64,000 nt of DNA, from NCBI GenBank assembly GCA_037043015.1, contig CM073330.1, positions 8,698,012 to 8,762,011 of the forward strand, read 5' to 3'. Within the stretch, counting starts at the first letter, position 1. Every line of letters begins with the position of its first letter. The notes under the pieces are model-generated. The model made no database searches and was not told the origin of the DNA. It was given only the letters and a program-made list of their open reading frames with translations. This stretch comes from Bryum argenteum (taxonomy: Eukaryota; Streptophyta; Bryopsida; Bryales; Bryaceae). Shown here in pieces: positions 2,720-63,145 of the stretch. A program made the translations under genes and the position numbers.

Positions 2720-2723
2720 TTAA

Positions 2724-3331
2724 CCCCTAAATGGTTTGACTCATTTGTAGTAAAATGAATACATCCTCAAAAGCATTGTCATAGGTGGAGGTAAAAGTGT
2801 GTTATCCAAATCTCAACCGTACAATCTTGATGTAGACATATTGAACATCATGTGTGTCAAATTTTGAGTCATGAGGCTTCATAGATTGCGAGATCATAAT
2901 GTATTAATACTCAAAAATGATCACATAATTTCATCATTTTCACTTTAAAGTGAAAATGCTACCATTAGACTTATTGCAATGAAAAAGTCACCAATTAGAA
3001 TGTTGTTCACCTTCATCTCAGTAGCATCCTTGAACAAAAAAAAAACCATGAGAAAAATTTCTTTGTGCAAATAATGGCCCTGCAATGGTGAAAACTGCCC
3101 TAAATTTTACAAAGGAAAAAATGTCTAACACTAGGCTGCTGTCACTGAAATGCATGCCATTGATTCATACTTCATTGTATGGGTCTGAGATTTTTATGAC
3201 ATGAACTAGACTTGATTTGGGACCCAACCCAAGTGATTTCGTCCAAAACGGAGTCCGGATGAAGAAGTTATGGCTCTCCAAAGTTTCTGTCATCCAAAAT
3301 GTCGTTTTTCGACATTCGGCCCGCTTAAGGG
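2724..3331 (+). mobile_element. TTAA-flanked MITE, family A, internally deleted copy (608 bp)
   Basis: The element starts CCCCTAAATGG after TTAA (2720-2723) and ends CGCTTAAGGG before TTAA (3332-3335). It carries the family A core, but about 370 bp is missing from the middle relative to the 970-bp copies. A nearly identical copy lies at 61558, with about 15 differences in 610 bp by eye. A subterminal hairpin, AATGTCGTTTTTCGACATT, lies at 3298-3316. There is no transposase frame. The right end is the uninterrupted version of the site into which another element inserted in the 61.5-kb copy. Confidence 0.8.
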
Positions 3332-3599
3332 TTAAGTTATTTGCTTACATTGTTTTTATGTTGGATTTGACCAAATGTATTAGTATGATGGAACAAGTCC
3401 TTGCCCATGTCCTCCGCACACAGACATTAAAAAGGTCAGATTAAAATTTATAAAATGTATAAAACTCCAAACCTAGGTATTAAAAAAATACAGAGTTGGA
3501 GGATTTTGGTGATGTTGAAATTATGAGATATGCAATCAATATGTAAGTTCCGAGCTTCTCACTTCTCCACGTTGTTTAAGATGTACAACATGTCCTCCG

Positions 3600-3960: not shown

Positions 3961-4373
3961 TTCATGTTTCATATTCTTTGTCCCTTTACCTCCTTGTTAT
4001 ATTCTTAGGATCTAAAAACTCTTAATAACAATCAAAAAGCACTTATAGAAACTCTCCAAATTATTTAGAACGCTTCATAACATATATCCATGACCAAATG
4101 ATGATGACCATGACCATGCATCGCCAAGGACGGACACACAAAACCCTTATCATGTTCTTTTATATATAGAGATACACTATTATATAAAGAAGAATGAAGT
4201 AGTTTATGCTCCTCTTTTGAAAGGCACCACAAGCCTTGGCTTGGTGATTGGAGCTCATGGCCATGGATGAGGAGGATTTGGGTTTTATTGCCCATACTCG
4301 CATAGTGTTCACCATTATAATCCACTAAGTCATGGTGAGGGGTTCTTTGACCTTGTTGTATGGGTATCTTTAA

Positions 4374-5570
4374 CTCCTATACGTCCTTCGGTACTTTAGC
4401 CAAAAAACACATTTTCAAAAAAAGTATCATAGATGGAAAAGAAGATAGGTTATTAAGATCTCAACGGTCCAAACTTGCAATAGACTTGGTGTAGGTCATT
4501 TGAGTCATGATGCCTCATAAATTGGGCAATCGTAAATTACTACAACAATCGAAGATTTACCAACAAAGCTGCTACAATAAGAAGGTCACCAACTAGAAAA
4601 TTGTTCATATTCATCTCAATAATACCCTTGTCTAAGAAAAACAATATCAAATAAATTCTTGTCTCAAATAATAGCCTTGCAATGGTGAAAAATGCCAAAA
4701 TATTTACAAAGGAAAAATAGTCCAAAAGTAAACCCCTTGCACTCAAATCCATGCCTTATCTTCAATACATCTTTGATCGGGTCAAGGTTTCTACCACTAA
4801 AACTAAAATATAATTTGAATCCATTCCAAAAAATAAAGCCAAAATCTAATGGTGGATGAAGGAGATATAGCTCCTCAAAATTCATCTATTTTTTTACTTT
4901 TTCATCTTAGAAACATCATTGTAATTCTAATACATAAAACATCTATGTCAAATATATTCCAACTACAAAGTTGTTGGTATTATCTTAACCCTTAAACGCC
5001 TGATGTCACCCAAGGGGTCATATTCCAATAGAATCTCCTCTGTAGCTCTCAATGTATTCAACGTTTCACTTATATTTTGATGTCAAACCGGTCACCTTCT
5101 TTGATGTCAAACTAGTCACCTTCTTGTGATGCATTCAAGAAGTGAAATTTTAGAATTCAAATCACAATTTGTATGAGTGATTTTGTGCTTTGAAAGGATT
5201 GTGGTAGGTAGGTTGGGGCTGTACATAACCTTGTAGGAGGTTGCAAGCTCATCATTGATTGTATCATTCATGACGCCCAAGTTCAAAAAGTACACTATTC
5301 ATGATGCCCCAAGTCCAAAAAATGTTGTGATCCAATACTAGGCTGCCCAAATCCGTGTAGCTATACGTTTAAGGGTTAAGACCATGATTATGTAAAGAAC
5401 GTTTATGAAAAACTATTTGTGATTTCATATATTTGGCTTGCACTAGTAGAACATGATTCATGCTTGAAAACCCAAAAACAAAAGTTGCCTTAACTAAATT
5501 GAATGTCATATAACTCATACTTTATTGTTTGGAGCTGAAATTCTCACCACACCAAGTAGATTTGATTTGG
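4374..5570 (+). mobile_element. TTAA-flanked MITE, family A, 3' truncated and interrupted
   Basis: The left end follows TTAA at 4370-4373 and reads CTCCTATACGTCC, a mutated form of the family end. Family A sequence runs to 4988, is interrupted by a second element (4989-5375), and resumes at 5380 with CATGATTATGTAAAG. Homology stops near 5570, so the last ~130 bp and the right terminal repeat are gone. It is an old copy, with many differences from the copies at 36.4 and 62.2 kb. Confidence 0.7.
4989..5375. mobile_element. TTAA-flanked MITE, type B (387 bp), nested
   Basis: Perfect inverted ends CCCTTAAACG and CGTTTAAGGG are flanked by TTAA at 4985-4988 and 5376-5379. It sits inside a family A copy. 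At the matching place, the uninterrupted copy at 37.05 kb reads CACCTTAAGATCATGACC, while here TATCTTAA and TTAAGACCATG flank the insert. This filled-site versus empty-site pair shows that TTAA was duplicated on insertion. The interior is unlike family A and has no coding frame. Confidence 0.8.
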
Positions 5571-7377: not shown

Positions 7378-8938
7378 CTCCTAAGTGCGGCAAATGTATA
7401 AAAACAACATTTGGAATGAAAGGCTGAAACTTTGAAGAGCCATGACTTCTTCATTCGAATTCCGTTCTGGACAAGGCTTTGGTCGTGAATGAGGTTTTAG
7501 TTTGGTTTGTAAGAATATTTGACCCATACAATGAAGTATGAATCAATGGCACGCATTTTAGAGATGGTAGTTTTGTGTTCAACCTTTGAAACTTAGGCAT
7601 GTTTTACCATTGCAAATATGTAAAATCCATTTATTTTCCATAGATTTTTTTCATAACTATGATCTTTAGATAATTTTCAAAAACTTTCTCATTGAAGACT
7701 TTACTATTGGCACTAGTTATGCAGTGATGTTTCTACAATGAAAGAAAGTGACAAAGTGGATGATTTTTGAGGAGCTATATTCCCTTCATATACTGCTTTA
7801 GTTCAATTTTGTTTGTTTTTTTTTTTTTTTTTTTTTTTTTTTTGTTAGATTTCAACTTAAATTTAGTTTTTCTTTTGTAGAACCCTTAAATCCACCAAAG
7901 ATGTTAGGGAAGACATGACATGCATTTCTGTGTAAAGGGTCTCATTATGGACATTTTTTCCTTTGTAAATTTGGAGCAGTATTGGCCATTGCAAGGCCAT
8001 TATTTGCGCAAAGATCTAATTTTCACATTCTTTTGTTGTTTCAAGAGGTCATTTAGATTAAGCTAAACAACCTTTTGGCTGGTGACTTTCTCATTGCAAT
8101 AAGTTAATTGGTGGGATTTTCACTTCAAAGTGAAAATGATTATATTTTGCGATAAAATTTTGTGTACTAATACCTTATAATCTTGCAATCTTTGAGACCT
8201 CACAACTCAAATATGGTCAACATGACCTACACTGAGTGTAGTACACAATTGTATGGTTGAAATCTAAATATCTTACTTTCATTTGCACTAATGGCACTCC
8301 AAACACAATGATGTGTTTAGCTTAACCCTTAATTGACATCCTTGTTTTCCACAAATTGGAGAGAAATGCAACCTCATTGTCTTCTGGCCTTATTTCTGCA
8401 CTCAAGGTAAAACAATTTTGAGAATCGGAAACGGTGGTTATCAAGGTAACTTGGTGATGTGACCAATGCAAAAAAGATCGATCACATCGGGTAAAATCTC
8501 AAAAAATGGCACCGTTGAGAAAAAAATGTTTTGGTTGCTGATCATGAGTGAGAAATATTGTATTGCTTTTTTGGTTTTTCCTCCCTTGGGTCATTTTTTT
8601 CTGAAAATTGGCATCATAGAGCACGGTATAGGGATAAAGATGAAGATTTTTTATTATTTTGAAAAAAAATCGTCAAAAAAATAAAAAGAAAGGCCAAGTC
8701 AAAGAGCATTGACCATGGGATCACGTAGCCCCTACAATTTCGCGCGGATCACACAAACCTCAAGAAGGCGATCGGGAAGGAGCATTGGATTCGGAAAAAC
8801 AAAAGAATAGGGGTGCCTTTGGACGAGATTTGCACCCTACCACTCTGTCGGACCCCAAAAGCAAAAACAATGACCTTGGTGACCAGTTTGGCCACCGGTG
8901 ACAATTAAGGGTTAAAAAGACCTTCGAGGATTTAGAGG
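7378..8938 (-). mobile_element. TTAA-flanked MITE, family A, inverted and interrupted
   Basis: This is family A in reverse orientation. The complement of the conserved 3' block (GAGCCATGACTTCTTCATTC) lies near 7438 and the complement of the 5' block near 8245. Both terminal repeats are mutated: CTCCTAAGTGC on the left after GTAA, and GATTTAGAGG on the right before TTAC. A 586-bp element (8326-8911) is inserted just inside the right end. A 29-base T run occurs at about 7815-7843. Confidence 0.7.
8326..8911. mobile_element. TTAA-flanked MITE, type C (586 bp), nested
   Basis: Ends CCCTTAATTG and CAATTAAGGG are flanked by TTAA at 8322-8325 and 8912-8915. Removing the element and one TTAA rejoins the host as TGTTTAGC-TTAA-AAAGACC, which aligns with the expected family A end (TTGGCTAAAAATACC). 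The interior is unlike types A, B and D and has no transposase frame. Confidence 0.75.
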
Positions 8939-21286: not shown

Positions 21287-22259
21287 TTAAGCAGCCGCCT
21301 CCAGCTCATCAATAGCGTAGTTGTTAGTTGAGACTCCGCCGTAGTTGACCTTGTCGAATCTCACCACCACGGGGTACCTCACATTCGGTGACTGCAACCA
21401 AATGAGAGCAAAGAATTAGCCTCAAGGCGTCGTAATATCCAATTCCGTGAAAGTGCGAACAATTGTAGACCTAGAAATCCTAATTCTCCAATCCATGGTA
21501 GCAAAACTCATCTAACGATTATTATCTAACCGCACGCATGAATTACAGTCACACGATCTCTGCAAAATACTCATATACATTTCCCACAGCACGCTCTCTA
21601 AACAAAAACACGAACCGCAAGAAACATAGAACCTAAAATCTGATCTCTTAGAGAGAATTGAAATACAGGTATCAAATTCGGAAGAACAGCACACGAATAT
21701 CTAAATCTTTTGCATTGTGGAAGATCTTTCACAAGCACACTTAGGTTGTAGATAACGCAATGTCTGCACAGAATTTCTTGAGCGACCTCATGTGCATGTT
21801 ACTGCGAGATACATCGCAGGAGGAGAACATGAAAGCACGATCTCTGCAGAATGTGGAGGCTTATCTTTAATCACTCCACATTCTGCATGTTGGCACGAGC
21901 CTCCATTCAAGGGAAGCACGCAGAATGCCGTACAACTGAAGAGGAAGAGACGATGGCGGTACCTGATCGACGGCGACGACCTTGCCGGTGTCGTTGTACC
22001 AGTAAGACTCCCGTCTCAAGATCTTGACGATGGAGCCGCGCTTGGGGCCCTTGGGCTCGGGCTTGGCGGGGGCAGAAGCGGGGGGAGCAGCCTGGGCGGG
22101 GGTCTCCTCGGCTCTGACGACGAGCCTTCCGTTGTTGCGGATGGCAACGAGGTTAACAACAGGCCTGCATTGCACGCGGGTGGAGAACAGAGAGGAGCTC
22201 GCAGCTCCAGACAAGGCAGCCGCGGAGACGGACACGGCAGCACAAGCGGCGGACGCCAT
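21287..22259 (-). CDS. psaE: Photosystem I reaction centre subunit IV, chloroplast precursor
   Basis: PsaE is a small stromal subunit of photosystem I. It helps dock ferredoxin (and FNR) and supports cyclic electron flow. There are two exons: 22259-21963 (99 codons, donor CAG/GTACCG) and 21391-21287 (acceptor TTGCAG), phase 0, giving 133 residues. Residues 1 to about 50 are an Ala/Ser-rich transit peptide ending near VVRAEE. An Ala/Pro linker follows, then the conserved SH3-like fold from [15 protein letters not shown] through TGKVVAVDQ, and in exon 2 [20 protein letters not shown] to the acidic end. The start MASAAC was preferred over an ATG six codons upstream because it gives a normal transit peptide. 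The length and complete fold indicate an intact gene. Confidence 0.95.
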
Positions 22260-23480
22260 CTCTTCAGCAACCAACAACTAGCACCGGACCGGAGGATTGC
22301 GGAGAAGACAGAGAGACGCCGGAAAACTGCGAAGGAGGAAGCTGAAGAAGATTGGGATGCGAGAGATGGCTATGGAGGGCGGGGACTTAACCGGAGCAAA
22401 GTGTGGCGACCACGATGCCTTATCTGGCCGAGCCCCAACCCGCTTATCCATTGGTTGTAAATTGGATAGCCCCGCTAATGTTGTAATCTTGGGCTCTCCG
22501 CCGTCGATTCCCCTTCGGGTCCCCGCGCCGTCGATCCCTCCTATCCACGTGGCCAGCCTGGTCCCACCTTTCCTTCGTCTCTCCCGACTCGAGCCTCCGA
22601 TTGTGCTTTCGGGGATTGTTGGATTGCTCTGCATACTTTACTTTTGATTTTGATTCTACTTTCTGCGAAGATCATGATTGGGGTGCACTCTGTATTTTGC
22701 CATGATTTGAATTCGAGATCGGATTTGGACTCTGCGTCAAGTAACTCCAGCAATTCGGTGCCCGACATTGTTGGATTGTTTCGACGTTGTAGATTGTAAG
22801 CAGCCTCGAAACGCTAACTTTCCTGGCACTGTTTGAGTTACGGATTGAAATTCGGTTCGGATTTGGATTCGATGCTGAAGGATTCTGCCTCGTCGGAACT
22901 TTCAGATATTTTATCGCTGTTTGAGTTACGGGTTGAATCAGGTGTTGTTGAAGCTCTAATGCGATTCGGGTTGATGGCGCCTTTAGGTTTTGAGGCTTTC
23001 GAAGCTTTCAGGTAACCAAATGTAGTTACTCCGATTGGAAGAAGCGAGGTCCTCACAACGATCAGACAAGGTATTATTGATGCGGTTCGGGTGTTAGTTG
23101 ATTACGGCGCCATACCTCGTCAAAGCTTTCAAACCGATCATAGTTCTTGGTACTGTTTGTGATACGGATTGAGCTAGCTCTAATTAAGTGGTTCAGGTTT
23201 CAATTTGAGGATGGCGCCTTCCAAAGTTATGATACTCTGTGCCTCGCCGGGGGCATTCACGTAAGCGACTGCAGTTGCTGCGATTGTAAGTAGGTGTCGT
23301 CGGAGCTTGAATTCGATGAGGTTGTTTTGGTTGCGTATCGACTTCGATGATGTCTTGTGCTTTATCGGATCCTTCAGTAGTCGAATGTAGTTGCTACGAT
23401 TGCAAGGAGGGCTGACTCCGCATCAAATTCGGATACTTCAACACATGTTACTGTACGAAGCTCCTTGTGATTCGACAGAA
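22260..23480. repeat. psaE upstream region with diverged internal repeats
   Basis: 22260-22540 should contain the psaE leader and promoter, but no TATA box could be assigned safely. From about 22720 to 23480 phrases recur in the same order: TGTTTGAGTTACGG(A/G)TTGAA, GATGGCGCCTT, TTTCAGGTAACC/TTCACGTAAGCG, and TGTAGTTGCT(A/G)CGATTG. This suggests three or four old, unequal repeat copies of roughly 180-330 bp. Some junctions look like splice donors (CAGGTAAC), so non-coding exons of a transcript running away from psaE are possible but unproven. Confidence 0.4.
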
Positions 23481-24974: not shown

Positions 24975-25400
24975 CCCTTAAGCGCCCACAGTGTCGTTTT
25001 TCGACATTTTGGATGTGAGGCTCCGTCTTTGGTGCACAACCCCGCTTTCATCCCATTGATTTTTCATCCGCCATTTTTTTTGCTCAACTCCTTGTTGGGT
25101 TTACTCTACTCCCTCCTTGGATAAATAGTAAAAACCTTGATCCTCAGTTTGTGAGAGTGGGCAAAAGAGATTTTTCATGAAAGTTTTGGTGGTGTGATCT
25201 TCACCCCTTTTTTGCATGGATCTTGAAATCCATACCTCCAAATGGCATGCAACTTGGCGGTCACACTAATTGCCATGCTCCAAAGAAGATCCTACGGTTG
25301 GATTTTCCATTTTCCTCTTTTATTTGTTTTTACGCAGTTTTGAAAAAATCAGCATTATTACCAATTGTTAGGAGCTTTACCCCCCTTGGGCGTTTAGGGG
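24975..25400. mobile_element. TTAA-flanked MITE, type D (426 bp)
   Basis: The left end CCCTTAAGCGCCC follows TTAA (24971-24974). The right end GGGCGTTTAGGGG precedes TTAA (25401-25404). The left subterminal part contains a GTGTCGTTTTTCGACATT hairpin (24991-25008) and ATTTTGGATG, which is the inverse of the family A right end. The rest of the interior is unrelated to family A. A 73-residue ORF over the right half is incidental. Confidence 0.8.
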
Positions 25401-36385: not shown

Positions 36386-37359
36386 CCCCTAAACGTCCCA
36401 GCCTATTTTTAGCAGAAAAGCACATATCCATAGAATTCGTCATAGATGAAAATGAAGAGAAGCTATTAAGATCTCAACCGTACAAACTTGTAATAGACTT
36501 ATTGAAGATCATGTGGACCAAAATTTGAGTCATGAGGCCTTATAGATCGGGAGATCATAACATATTAATATCAAAAACAAACTGCAAAATTTCATCATTT
36601 TCACTTTGAGGTGGAAATGCTACCAATATACCTATTGCAATGAAAAAATCACCAACTATAAAGATGTTCACCTTCATCTTAATAAGTCCTTTACCCAACA
36701 AAAATTCATCAAAAAAATTTCTTGGCTCAAATAAAAGCCATGCAATGGTAAAAACTGCCGAAATTTTTACAAAGGAAAAATATTACAAAATTGGACCCTT
36801 TGCATTCAATTTCATGCCTTATCTTCAAAACATCTTCGATCTTGTTGAGGTTTCTACCACTTAGACTAGACTCTAATTGGAGGCTATCCCAAAAAATTAA
36901 GTTGAAATCAACGGTGGATGAGGGAGATATAGCTCCTCAAATATCATCCATTTTCTCACTAATTCTGTTGACAAAACATCATTGCAAATCCAATAGCAAA
37001 ATCATTTGGATCAAAAAATTTCTCACTACAAAGTTGTTAAGAATCACCTTAAGATCATGACCATAAAAAAAAAAAATACATGAAAAACTATTTTTAGTTT
37101 CACATAATTGGCTTGCAATGGTGATACATGCCCCATGCTTGGAAACCCAAAAACAAGAGCTGTCTTCACTAAAGTGCATTCCATTAATTCATAATTTATT
37201 TTATGGGCTTGTAAATTTTACAACACAAACTAGACTTGATTTGGAACCTAATCCAAGTGATTTCATCCAAAACGGACCTCGGATGAAGAAGATATGGCTA
37301 TTCGAAGTTTTTGCCCTCCATCCAAAATGTAGAAAAACGACATTGGGGACGTTTAGGGG
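36386..37359 (+). mobile_element. TTAA-flanked MITE, family A, full length (974 bp)
   Basis: The left end CCCCTAAACGTCCCAG follows TTAA (36382-36385). The right end GGGGACGTTTAGGGG precedes TTAA (37360-37363). With the copy at 62162 it best defines the family: about 13-bp inverted ends, no coding capacity and a fixed order of internal blocks. The subterminal hairpin loop reads GTAGAAAAACGAC here, where other copies have GTCGTTTTTCGAC. Confidence 0.85.
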
Positions 37360-40074: not shown

Positions 40075-40620
40075 TTCAGGTGTAGGATATTTGCTATTGG
40101 CCCAGATTTTGAATTATACATTTGTCAAACCTTGTAAGCGTAGGATATTTATGGTTTGCTTAAATATTTGATACAATGCTATAAAACCTTCTAAGCGTAA
40201 AGTATTCAATGTTTGCCTAGATTTTAAGTGTAACCTTCTTGAACCTTCCACTAACCTTTTGAGCGTAGTATATTCGATATTTGCCCCAATTTTTAATGTA
40301 AGGTTCTCAAACCTTCCGCTAACCCTCTAAGCAACATATCCAATATTCGCCCAGATTTTTAGTGTAACGTTCTCGAACCTTCCACTCACCCTCCACTAAC
40401 CCTCTGAGCAACATATTCGATATTCGCCCAAATTTTTAGTGTAACATTCTTAAACCTTCCTCTAACCTTCTAAGTAGCATATTTGATATTTGCCCAGATG
40501 TTTCGTGTAACATTCTCGAACCTTGCACTAACTTTATGAGTAGCATATTTGATATTCGCCCAAATTTTTAATGTAACATTCTTGAACCTTCCACTAAACA
40601 ACAAGTGAAAATTCAGAATC
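40075..40620. repeat. Degenerate tandem array, about 60-80-bp units
   Basis: Roughly eight diverged units repeat the order GCATATT(C/T)GATATT(C/T)GCCC, then AAATTTTTAGTGTAACATTC, then T(C/T)GAACCTTCCACTAAC. Unit length varies, which suggests old expansion with partial units. Confidence 0.8.
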
Positions 40621-41012
40621 ATAAAAATTCCCCTAAAATCAACTCAACATACCCCTCAACCATTTGAAACTCCAATTTAATAAAAAACACTTTTTGTATG
40701 TGAAGCCATAATATATGGACATGACAATTATAGTGCAATTACATCCAAAAGAAGGACGGTGCGTTAACCTTATGAGAGTAGCATATTCAATACTCGCCCA
40801 AATTTTTTAGTGTAACATTCTCGAACCTTCCACTATACAACAATATTCAAAATCCAAAATCATAAAAACACCTAAAATCAACCCAACATACACATAAACC
40901 ATTTGAAATCCCCAATTTAATAAAAAAACACTTTTTGTATGTGAAGCCAAAATATATGGACATGACAATTATAGTGTAATTCCATCCAAAAGAAGGGCGG
41001 GGTGCGACATGG
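40538..41012. repeat. 238-bp tandem duplication
   Basis: 40538-40775 is repeated at 40776-41012 with few differences. It contains one array unit plus CACTTTTTGTATGTGAAGCC and GACATGACAATTATAGTG. It ends next to the leader of the gene at 41.7 kb, so it may form part of that gene's upstream region. Confidence 0.85.
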
Positions 41013-61553: not shown

Positions 61554-61557
61554 TTAA

Positions 61558-63141
61558 CCCCTAAATGGTTTGACTCATTTGTAGTAAAATGAACACATCC
61601 TCAAAAGCATTGTCATAGGTGGAGGTAAAAGTGTGTTATCCAAATCTCAACCGTACAATCTTGTCGTAGACATATTGAACATCATGTGGGTCAAATTTTG
61701 AGTCATGAGGCTTCATAGATTGCGAGATCATAATGTATTAATACTCAAAAATGATCACATAATTTCCTCATTTTCACTTTAAAGTGAAAATGCTACCATT
61801 AGACTTATTGCAATGAAAAAGTCACCAATTAGAATGTTGTTCACCTTCATCTCAGTAGCATCCTTGAACAAAAAAAAACCATGAGAAAAATTTCTTTGTG
61901 CAAATTAAGGCCCTGCAATGGTGAAAACTTCCCTAAATTTTACAAAGGAAAAAATGTCTAAAACTAGGCTGCTGTCACTAAAATGCATGCCATTAATTCA
62001 TACTTCATTGTATGGGTCTGAGATTTCTACGACATGAACTAGACTTGATTTGGGACCCAACCCAAGTAATTTCGTCCAAAACGGAGTCCGGATGAAGAAG
62101 TTATGGCTCTCCAAAGTTGCTGTCATCCAAAATGTCGTTTTTCGACATTCGGCCCGCTTAACCCCTAAACGTCCTTGGGGTATTTTTAGCCAAAAACTCA
62201 TTTTCAAAAAATCTGATATAGATGAAAACAAAGATAAGCTATTCAGATCTCAACCGTACAAACTTGTAATAGACTTGTAGTAGATCATGTGGACCAAAAC
62301 TTGACTCATGGGACCTCATAGATTGCGAGATCATAACATATTAGTGCGCAAAACAGGATACAAAATATCATCATTTCCACTTTGAAGTGAAAAATACTAC
62401 CAACATGAAATTTGCAATCAAAAAATCAGCAACTAGAAAGTTGTTCATCTTCATCTCAAAGACACTTTTGTACCAAAAAAATTCATAAAAAAAAAATCTT
62501 GGCTCAAATAGTAGCCTTGTAGTCGTGAAAACTGCCAAAAATTTTACGAAGGAAAAATAGTCCAAATTAGACCCCTCGCACTCAAATCCATGCCTTTTCT
62601 TCAATATACCCTCGATTGGGTCAAGGTTTCTACCACTAAAAATAGACTATAATTGGAATCCATCTCAAAAAATAAAGTCAAAATCTAACGGTGGATGAAG
62701 GAGATCTAGCTCTTCACAAATCATCCATTTTTTCACTTTTTTTCATCGTAGAAACATCATTGCAAAGCCAATACCAAAGTTATCTAAATCAAAAAACTTC
62801 CAACTACAAAGTTGTTGGGATGCATCTAAATATCAAACCTATGAAAAAAAATTCATGAAAAACTATTTTAGATTTCACATAATTGGCTTGCAATGGTAAA
62901 ACATGCCAAATGTTTGAAAACCCAAAAACTAAAGCTGCCTTCACTAAAATCCATGCCATTTATTCATATTTTATTTTATGAGTCTGCAATTTGTACCACA
63001 TAAACTAGACTTGATTTGTGACCTACCCCAAGTGATTTTGTCAAAAACGGAGTTCGGATGAAGAAGTTATGGCTCTTCAAAGTTTCTGCCCTTCATCCAA
63101 AATGTCGTTTTTCGACACTAGGGACGTTTAGGGGTTAAGGG
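61558..63141 (+). mobile_element. TTAA-flanked MITE, internally deleted family A, interrupted
   Basis: The left end CCCCTAAATGG follows TTAA (61554-61557). The right end is now split: CCCGC-TTAA at 62153-62161, and after a nested element TTAA-GGG-TTAA at 63135-63145. Without the insert it is about 607 bp, nearly identical to the copy at 2724-3331. Its outer target duplication is TTAA at 61554-61557 and 63142-63145. It contains the AATGTCGTTTTTCGACATT hairpin at 62131-62149. Confidence 0.85.
62162..63134 (+). mobile_element. TTAA-flanked MITE, family A, full length (973 bp), nested
   Basis: Ends CCCCTAAACGTCCTTGGGG and GGGACGTTTAGGGG are flanked by TTAA at 62158-62161 and 63135-63138. It inserted into the TTAA that is part of the right terminal repeat of the outer element. 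The empty site is visible at 3325-3335 in the sister copy. It is among the best-preserved copies, so it probably moved relatively recently. No coding capacity. Confidence 0.88.
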
Positions 63142-63145
63142 TTAA

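Follow-up and report, generated by a model that had tools for sequence, protein, structure and literature searches.

TTAA-flanked non-autonomous elements of the moss Bryum argenteum and long elements with the same ends that carry a piggyBac-type transposase

Introduction

What can be discerned about a family of mobile elements from one member that has landed inside another? In a 64,000-bp stretch of the Bryum argenteum genome, here called the window (G000:C10:8698012-8762011, in an assembly of 258.8 Mb and 25 contigs), one of two sister copies of a 608-bp element is split, at a TTAA within its right end, by a second element of 973 bp. A preliminary description of this locus, made from the letters alone, took the arrangement as direct evidence of a 4-bp TTAA target duplication and assigned the elements to a MITE family of the piggyBac superfamily. 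The piggyBac-type transposase is an enzyme class best known from animals, and piggyBac itself is a standard gene-transfer tool derived from them; Sola3 elements also use TTAA. The locus thus raises the question of which superfamily its elements belong to, and of what kind of enzyme has moved them.

Results

The nested insertion is borne out both by direct reading and by alignment, with a TTAA on either side of the 973-bp element (Table 1). After joining of the flanks, the two 608-bp copies are 97.2% identical and differ, besides substitutions and a 1-base gap in an A run, solely by one 977-bp insertion, which consists of the 973-bp element and one extra TTAA; the empty site of the sister copy reads CCCGC-TTAA-GGG-TTAA. 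The outer flanks of the two 608-bp copies differ, so that these are separate insertions; the empty site belongs to a paralogue and does not show the filled locus in its earlier state. For an element originally named a MITE, 973 bp is a considerable length. A second pair of this kind was obtained at another locus (L057), where a 975-bp copy has entered a 608-type element at the TTAA of CACTTTAAAGTG; its empty counterpart is again the window copy 2720-3335, with agreement in 131 of 132 aligned bases. A third pair, weaker on account of its diverged copies, involves the 387-bp element: it interrupts an old 973-type copy at a TTAA that is empty in the 974-bp sibling, and the sequence of the 973-bp copy itself differs at this place.

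The window has four exact CCCCTAAACGTCC ends, which form two facing pairs; with up to two mismatches there are nine matches, against a chance mean of 0.55, a number attained in none of 100 shuffles. The 586-bp element lacks any similarity to the 973 type that BLAST would report. Apart from these elements, the window contains imperfect repeats of about 50-360 bp at 40185-41000, which do not match any of them.

Table 1. Elements, target sites and palindromes of the window, and transposase frames of the long elements L079 and L080 (positions of the frames refer to these loci)
Feature	Position	Strand	Remarks
608-bp non-autonomous element, empty-site sister	2724..3331	+	TTAA flanks 2720-2723, 3332-3335
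19-bp palindrome, 608-bp element right end, bp 16-34, centre bp 25	3298..3316	.	
Old incomplete 973-type copy holding 387-bp element	4370..5570	+	TTAA 4370-4373; right end unrecognisable
387-bp element, CCCTTAAACG ends, nested at TTAA (4985-4988, 5376-5379)	4989..5375	+	Within older copy 4370-5570
586-bp element, CCCTTAATTG ends, TTAA flanks	8326..8911	+	One-sided palindrome centred bp 25
426-bp element, CCCTTAAGCGCCC / CCCCTAAACGCCC ends, TTAA flanks	24975..25400	+	Palindrome centred bp 25 of left end
974-bp sibling of 973-bp element, TTAA flanks	36386..37359	+	Interior TTAA 37049-37052 = empty site for 4989-5375
Second 608-bp copy, split by 973-bp element	61558..63141	+	TTAA flanks 61554-61557, 63142-63145
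TTAA target site duplication, left of 973-bp element	62158..62161	.	
973-bp non-coding non-autonomous element (MITE), inside 608-bp copy	62162..63134	+	Perfect 13-bp terminal inverted repeats CCCCTAAACGTCC
15-bp palindrome TGTCG-N5-CGACA, 973-bp element right end, bp 18-32, centre bp 25	63103..63117	.	
TTAA target site duplication, right of 973-bp element	63135..63138	.	
L079 stop-to-stop frame, 914 aa	1923-4667	minus	PF13843 E 5.1e-77
L080 stop-to-stop frame, 841 aa	1666-4191	plus	PF13843 E 4.1e-77

Which enzyme would act on such ends? The preliminary description had proposed to look for a full-length relative with the same ends and a piggyBac-type transposase, and two such elements were found. 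In the MITE ends compared first, the base next to the 13 bp is C or T; the genome was searched for TTAACCCCTAAACGTCC with A or G in that place. This pattern is present at 54 places, including two facing pairs that span 5.8 and 5.9 kb (L079 and L080). Both elements have TTAACCCCTAAACGTCC at either end, in full agreement with the 13 bp of the MITE ends, and are flanked by TTAA; their surroundings differ, and they are 98.5% and 99.6% identical to one another over blocks of 4954 and 900 bp. An autonomous partner of a different transposase family had been named as an outcome that would speak against the piggyBac assignment. In the long frames between these ends (Table 1), DDE_Tnp_1_7 (PF13843) is the only Pfam family that matches at E up to 0.01.

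Among solved structures, the L080 frame finds only piggyBat (2.8e-30) and piggyBac (2.5e-27) with phmmer, and with a profile built from 27 relatives the match to piggyBac extends over residues 30-593 (E 1.7e-100), nearly the whole of the solved protein. In the profile alignment, the moss IDE, DNYFTS and GVD align with the corresponding motifs of piggyBac, whose catalytic residues are D268, D346 and D447 (PMC7351741). The Cys-rich C-terminal domain aligns to that of piggyBac as well, with C799, C802 and C811 nearly invariant in the 27 sequences. A predicted structure of the L080 protein has a mean pLDDT of 66, its long N-terminal part (residues 1-299) being of low confidence. A second frame lies upstream of the transposase in both elements (L079:4507-5226, 239 aa; L080:633-1607, 324 aa); the 324-aa frame is without a Pfam match at E up to 0.01.

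The transposase has relatives both within the genome and beyond it. Its DNA from L080 yielded 208 candidate places, 40 of which were scored; all 40 match, at 75-100%, and fall into identity classes of 100% (two places), 86-88, 77-78 and 75-76%. A 5.7-kb element, L081, has CCCCTAAAGGCCC at both ends, TTAA flanks and a broken transposase frame; an 887-aa frame is present in L082 and a broken one in L083, each with one end in the fetched stretch. When candidates from the protein database were scored on L080 residues 400-841 (E up to 0.001), 53 of 2079 proved to be relatives, all of them PF13843 and nearly all from metagenome or read-assembly sources, with an identity of 60% for the best long relative and 62% for a short match; no plant is named among the matches listed.

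Does the similarity between MITEs and long elements extend beyond the 13 bp? In 36 end comparisons with 200 shuffles each, the palindromic end of the 973-bp MITE (see below) scored 33 against the 5' end of L080, with a shuffle maximum of 26, and that of its sibling at 36386 scored 31, with shuffles reaching 31. Against L081 and L083, the 973-bp element scored 22 and 20, values that shuffled sequences attain as well. The palindromic end of the 608-bp element had no similarity to the long elements beyond the 13 bp in this shuffle test; its other end scored 26, 26 and 27, where the shuffles reached at most 26, 26 and 25. One wrong-end pairing, of the 36386 palindromic end with the L081 3' end, likewise scored above its shuffle maximum (26 versus 24). 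The direct partner of the 973-bp MITE may thus be another transposase subfamily than those found. We nevertheless regard the family link between MITEs and long elements as firm, judging from the sequence of the ends and from the target.

That the 973-bp MITE and the long elements have so little in common past their 13-bp ends could be accounted for if the MITEs were Sola3-type elements, equally tied to TTAA, which reside beside an unrelated moss piggyBac and share its ends by chance. An identical 13-bp inverted repeat on both ends of a PF13843 element is unexpected by chance, however, and the deviant targets and the bp-25 palindrome described below point to piggyBac. We regard this alternative as very improbable.

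How long is the duplicated target? The length of 4 bp originally given is right, but the nested pair does not suffice to establish it: as TTAA is palindromic, such a pair fits a 4-bp TTAA, a 2-bp TA or a 3-bp duplication equally well, the TA reading implying ends of the form ACCCC..GGGGT. A single filled and empty TTAA site therefore agrees just as well with Tc1/mariner (Stowaway-like) or PIF/Harbinger (Tourist-like) MITEs, which are common classes in plants (PMC12550479) and would duplicate TA or TTA/TAA with a mere preference for TTAA. The decision comes from targets other than TTAA. In 30 loci chosen by a pattern without the flank, a few of which share flanks and so are not independent of one another, the left flank is TTAA in 27, TTAG in two and TTTA in one. 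The right end is recognisable in 29 of the 30, and 24 of these 29 have TTAA on both sides; of the remainder, one (L054) has TTAG on both sides and four have one deviant side, which may simply reflect later mutations.

Genome-wide, TTAG precedes 26 exact 13-bp ends. The far side was inspected for 20 of them (L054 and L035, the latter without a right end, had been seen earlier, and four were left out), and the right end is present in 18. Twelve of these 18 copies have TTAG at the far flank as well, with 12 different outer flanks. In the other six the far flank is TTAA, a pattern that a mutation on one side would produce; one of them reads so if the end is taken as one base shorter, and in another the end is diverged. 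The complete lists of deviant flanks comprise CTAA (18), ATAA (15) and GTAA (5) for the first base and TTAG (26), TTAT (8) and TTAC (3) for the fourth. Pairing the full lists by eye gave ten facing TTAG/CTAA pairs, eight of them among the 12 copies above, and three TTAT/ATAA pairs, all with spans of 970-984 bp; a facing TTAC/GTAA pair is absent from these lists.

As the same four bases flank both sides of the TTAG and TTAT copies, all four have been duplicated. Under a 2-bp TA duplication of the Stowaway kind one side would read TTAA instead, and a 3-bp duplication of the Tourist kind would not extend to the fourth base; with PF13843 as the only match of the long elements that have the same ends, there is next to no room for either class. 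The deviant targets also have a counterpart in piggyBac. In mouse cells about 2% of its insertions are elsewhere than at TTAA, mainly at CTAA/TTAG and ATAA/TTAT (PMC6651600, citing Li et al. 2013), the few non-TTAA sites of PMC6651600 itself being more varied, and rare TTAG and CTAA duplications are given for surveyed animal piggyBac elements (PMC10813416). A TTAA-specific 4-bp duplication is likewise made by the Kolobok superfamily, whose termini are 5'-RR..YY-3' (PMC9587614). Against this, the moss ends are CC..GG and the transposase between the same ends matches piggyBac, so that a Kolobok origin is exceedingly unlikely.

A further feature sets one end of these elements apart from the other. 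Over the first 110-150 bp of each end that were examined, six window elements have, at one end, a palindrome centred on bp 25 with 6-7 of 8 pairs, as compared with 1-4 of 8 at the other end. In none of the six does another centre of this end score higher than bp 25; there are ties at 29.5 (973-bp element), 15.5 (36386) and 24 (387-bp element). At the other ends, palindromes of score 6 occur elsewhere, in the case of the 973-bp element with centres at 23.5, 28.5 and 45; those near bp 46-47 are A/T-rich. TGTCG-like arms are common to four of the six, which are related, while the letters of the 586-bp and 387-bp elements differ. In the long elements the bp-25 score is 6/8 for L081 and 5/8 for L080 and L083, where other centres score higher; the end concerned in these three is the one upstream of the transposase gene.

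Summed over four groups (608, 586, 387 and L081), the score is 26/32 at bp 25, the next-best whole-number centre between 22 and 59 reaching at most 17. Fisher's method gives p = 1.2e-7 for bp 25 over the four groups, which are perhaps not fully independent, given a possible distant relationship between the 608 type and the long elements; without the 608 group, which had suggested the position, p is 6.5e-6, and for 586, 387 and L080 it is 3.4e-5, with single values of 0.0004 to 0.015 and 0.057 for L080. The left end of piggyBac likewise has a palindrome centred on bp 25, lying within bp 17-33, to which a dimer of the C-terminal domains binds (PMC7351741). By analogy, the moss palindrome would be a putative site of the same kind. 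The 5-bp centre of the palindrome, read in the same orientation, is AAAAA in one subfamily and TTTTT in another (63103-63117 and the right end of 36386-37359), as if inverted between symmetric arms.

How widely have these elements spread? The exact 13-bp end occurs 1568 times in the genome, to be read against a high backwards control of 472 matches for this pattern. A lack of TTAA flanks in most copies had been named as a second outcome that would contradict the piggyBac assignment; TTAA adjoins 1405 of the 1568. For the 17-bp pattern of TTAA plus end, the backwards control gave no match genome-wide, and with up to two mismatches there are 19,988 matches as compared with 767 in the control. 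The copy number is likely to be several thousand.

In the fetched loci there are 32 copies of the 973 type with 29 distinct left flanks (8 outer bases), a count in which a shifted duplicate such as L018 may figure once too often. Of these 29, 22 diverge from their majority sequence by 1.8-4.3% and seven by 6.8-8.5%, in a set that was picked by near-exact ends, a choice that favours young copies. Segmental duplication as the main route of spread, suggested by shared flanks in L034/L036, L039/L041/L056 and L029/L030/L038, can hardly be upheld in view of these distinct flanks and of the insertions into other elements that have empty sister sites.

The window also contains an exon, at 21867-22277 (minus), that encodes the photosystem I protein PsaE, with the mosses Ceratodon purpureus (67% identity) and Physcomitrium patens (55%) as the closest named relatives. 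By this one gene, the host would be a moss and no flowering plant. As the element ends lie on many contigs, including the one with PsaE, contamination is unlikely.

Some peculiarities of distribution were seen in passing. On contig C1, exact left ends of the 973 type number 12 in 44.1 Mb, a density about 7 times lower than that of C2 (65 in 34.6 Mb), and C1 may be an unusual chromosome, for example a sex-linked or heterochromatic one. Two such left ends in the same orientation lie 975 bp apart at G000:C2:18754033 and 18755008; they probably represent head-to-tail copies between which there is room for just one TTAA, which would suggest insertion of one copy into the TTAA that flanks the other. 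At L015:6089-7499, one and the same part of the 608-bp element (trimmed query 427-489) is matched repeatedly at intervals of ~190 bp, in what seems to be a tandem satellite containing MITE sequence.

Discussion

What, then, are the elements of this locus? The TTAA target, the CC ends and a PF13843 transposase between the same ends support their placement in the piggyBac superfamily, for which 5'-CC..GG-3' termini are characteristic (PMC10045372). We consider it very highly probable that they are piggyBac MITEs of the moss nuclear genome, moved by the transposases of 5.7-5.9-kb elements of the same family that reside elsewhere in it. A TA or TTA duplication, a Kolobok origin and segmental duplication as the main cause were rejected on account of the two-sided TTAG and TTAT targets, the termini and the differing flanks, respectively.

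Our characterization suggests a scenario in which the transposase core would bind the tip of the element and its C-terminal domains would bind, as a dimer, the palindrome at one end; the element would then be excised and joined to a TTAA, and filling would give the duplication. Going further, we lean, if only by a modest margin of belief, towards a broader view, namely that this land plant has a large, recently active, native piggyBac system of several autonomous subfamilies and of MITE families whose interiors are unrelated and whose end code is shared. In the end code we propose, a tip of CCCYTAA is combined with a palindrome that is centred on bp 25 and confined to one end. If this is true, the reading of one end by the C-terminal dimer would be conserved between plant and animal lineages of piggyBac, and the transposase may still work in plant cells. 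With its many copies, its long transposase frames and its thousands of related ends, the moss genome would provide a piggyBac system native to a plant, and a natural test of which end features matter.

Plant elements have been given the name piggyBac before. A review of angiosperm MITEs has piggyBac among seven superfamilies (PMC10004981), and repeat tables of a fern and of a grass give small piggyBac fractions (PMC6890710, PMC8319324); in the relevant portions of these sources they are labels without a transposase linked to ends. The main text of a MITE survey of 207 plants names neither piggyBac nor TTAA (PMC12550479), and the moss MITEs are possibly a class that has gone unnamed in such surveys. 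Within the open-access literature, with subscription journals and Repbase outside this scope, the portions covered describe no moss piggyBac with matching MITEs; we claim no priority. Both mentions of piggyBac in a paper on the moss N. japonicum turned out to be the word 'piggybacking'. The superfamily as such is known, and what we describe here is another piggyBac member in an unusual host.

Among known systems, Kolobok (PMC9587614) resembles the moss elements in its TTAA 4-bp duplication and differs in its termini and its transposase. piggyBat from Myotis lucifugus (PDB 9c0f; PMC11707139) has a PF13843-type transposase, which is the best single-sequence PDB match of the L080 frame, and imperfect palindromes on its left end only, the first of them just inside a motif at bp 11-16. 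It differs in that motif and palindrome occur three times on this end (PMC11707139), in comparison with the moss ends as examined over 110-150 bp. A close parallel is offered by piggyBac from Trichoplusia ni (PDB 6x67/6x68; PMC7351741), with its TTAA 4-bp duplication, CC..GG ends, DDD transposase with a Cys-rich C-terminal domain, left-end palindrome centred on bp 25 and rare TTAG/CTAA and TTAT/ATAA targets (PMC6651600, citing Li et al. 2013). In piggyBac, however, the palindrome is present at both ends, at different distances (PMC7351741), whereas in the moss it is established at one end. The moss elements are further distinguished by their host, their length of 5.7-5.9 kb, the other letters of their palindromes, the extended N-terminal region of L080 (residues 1-299, of low confidence in the model) and the MITE families that accompany them.
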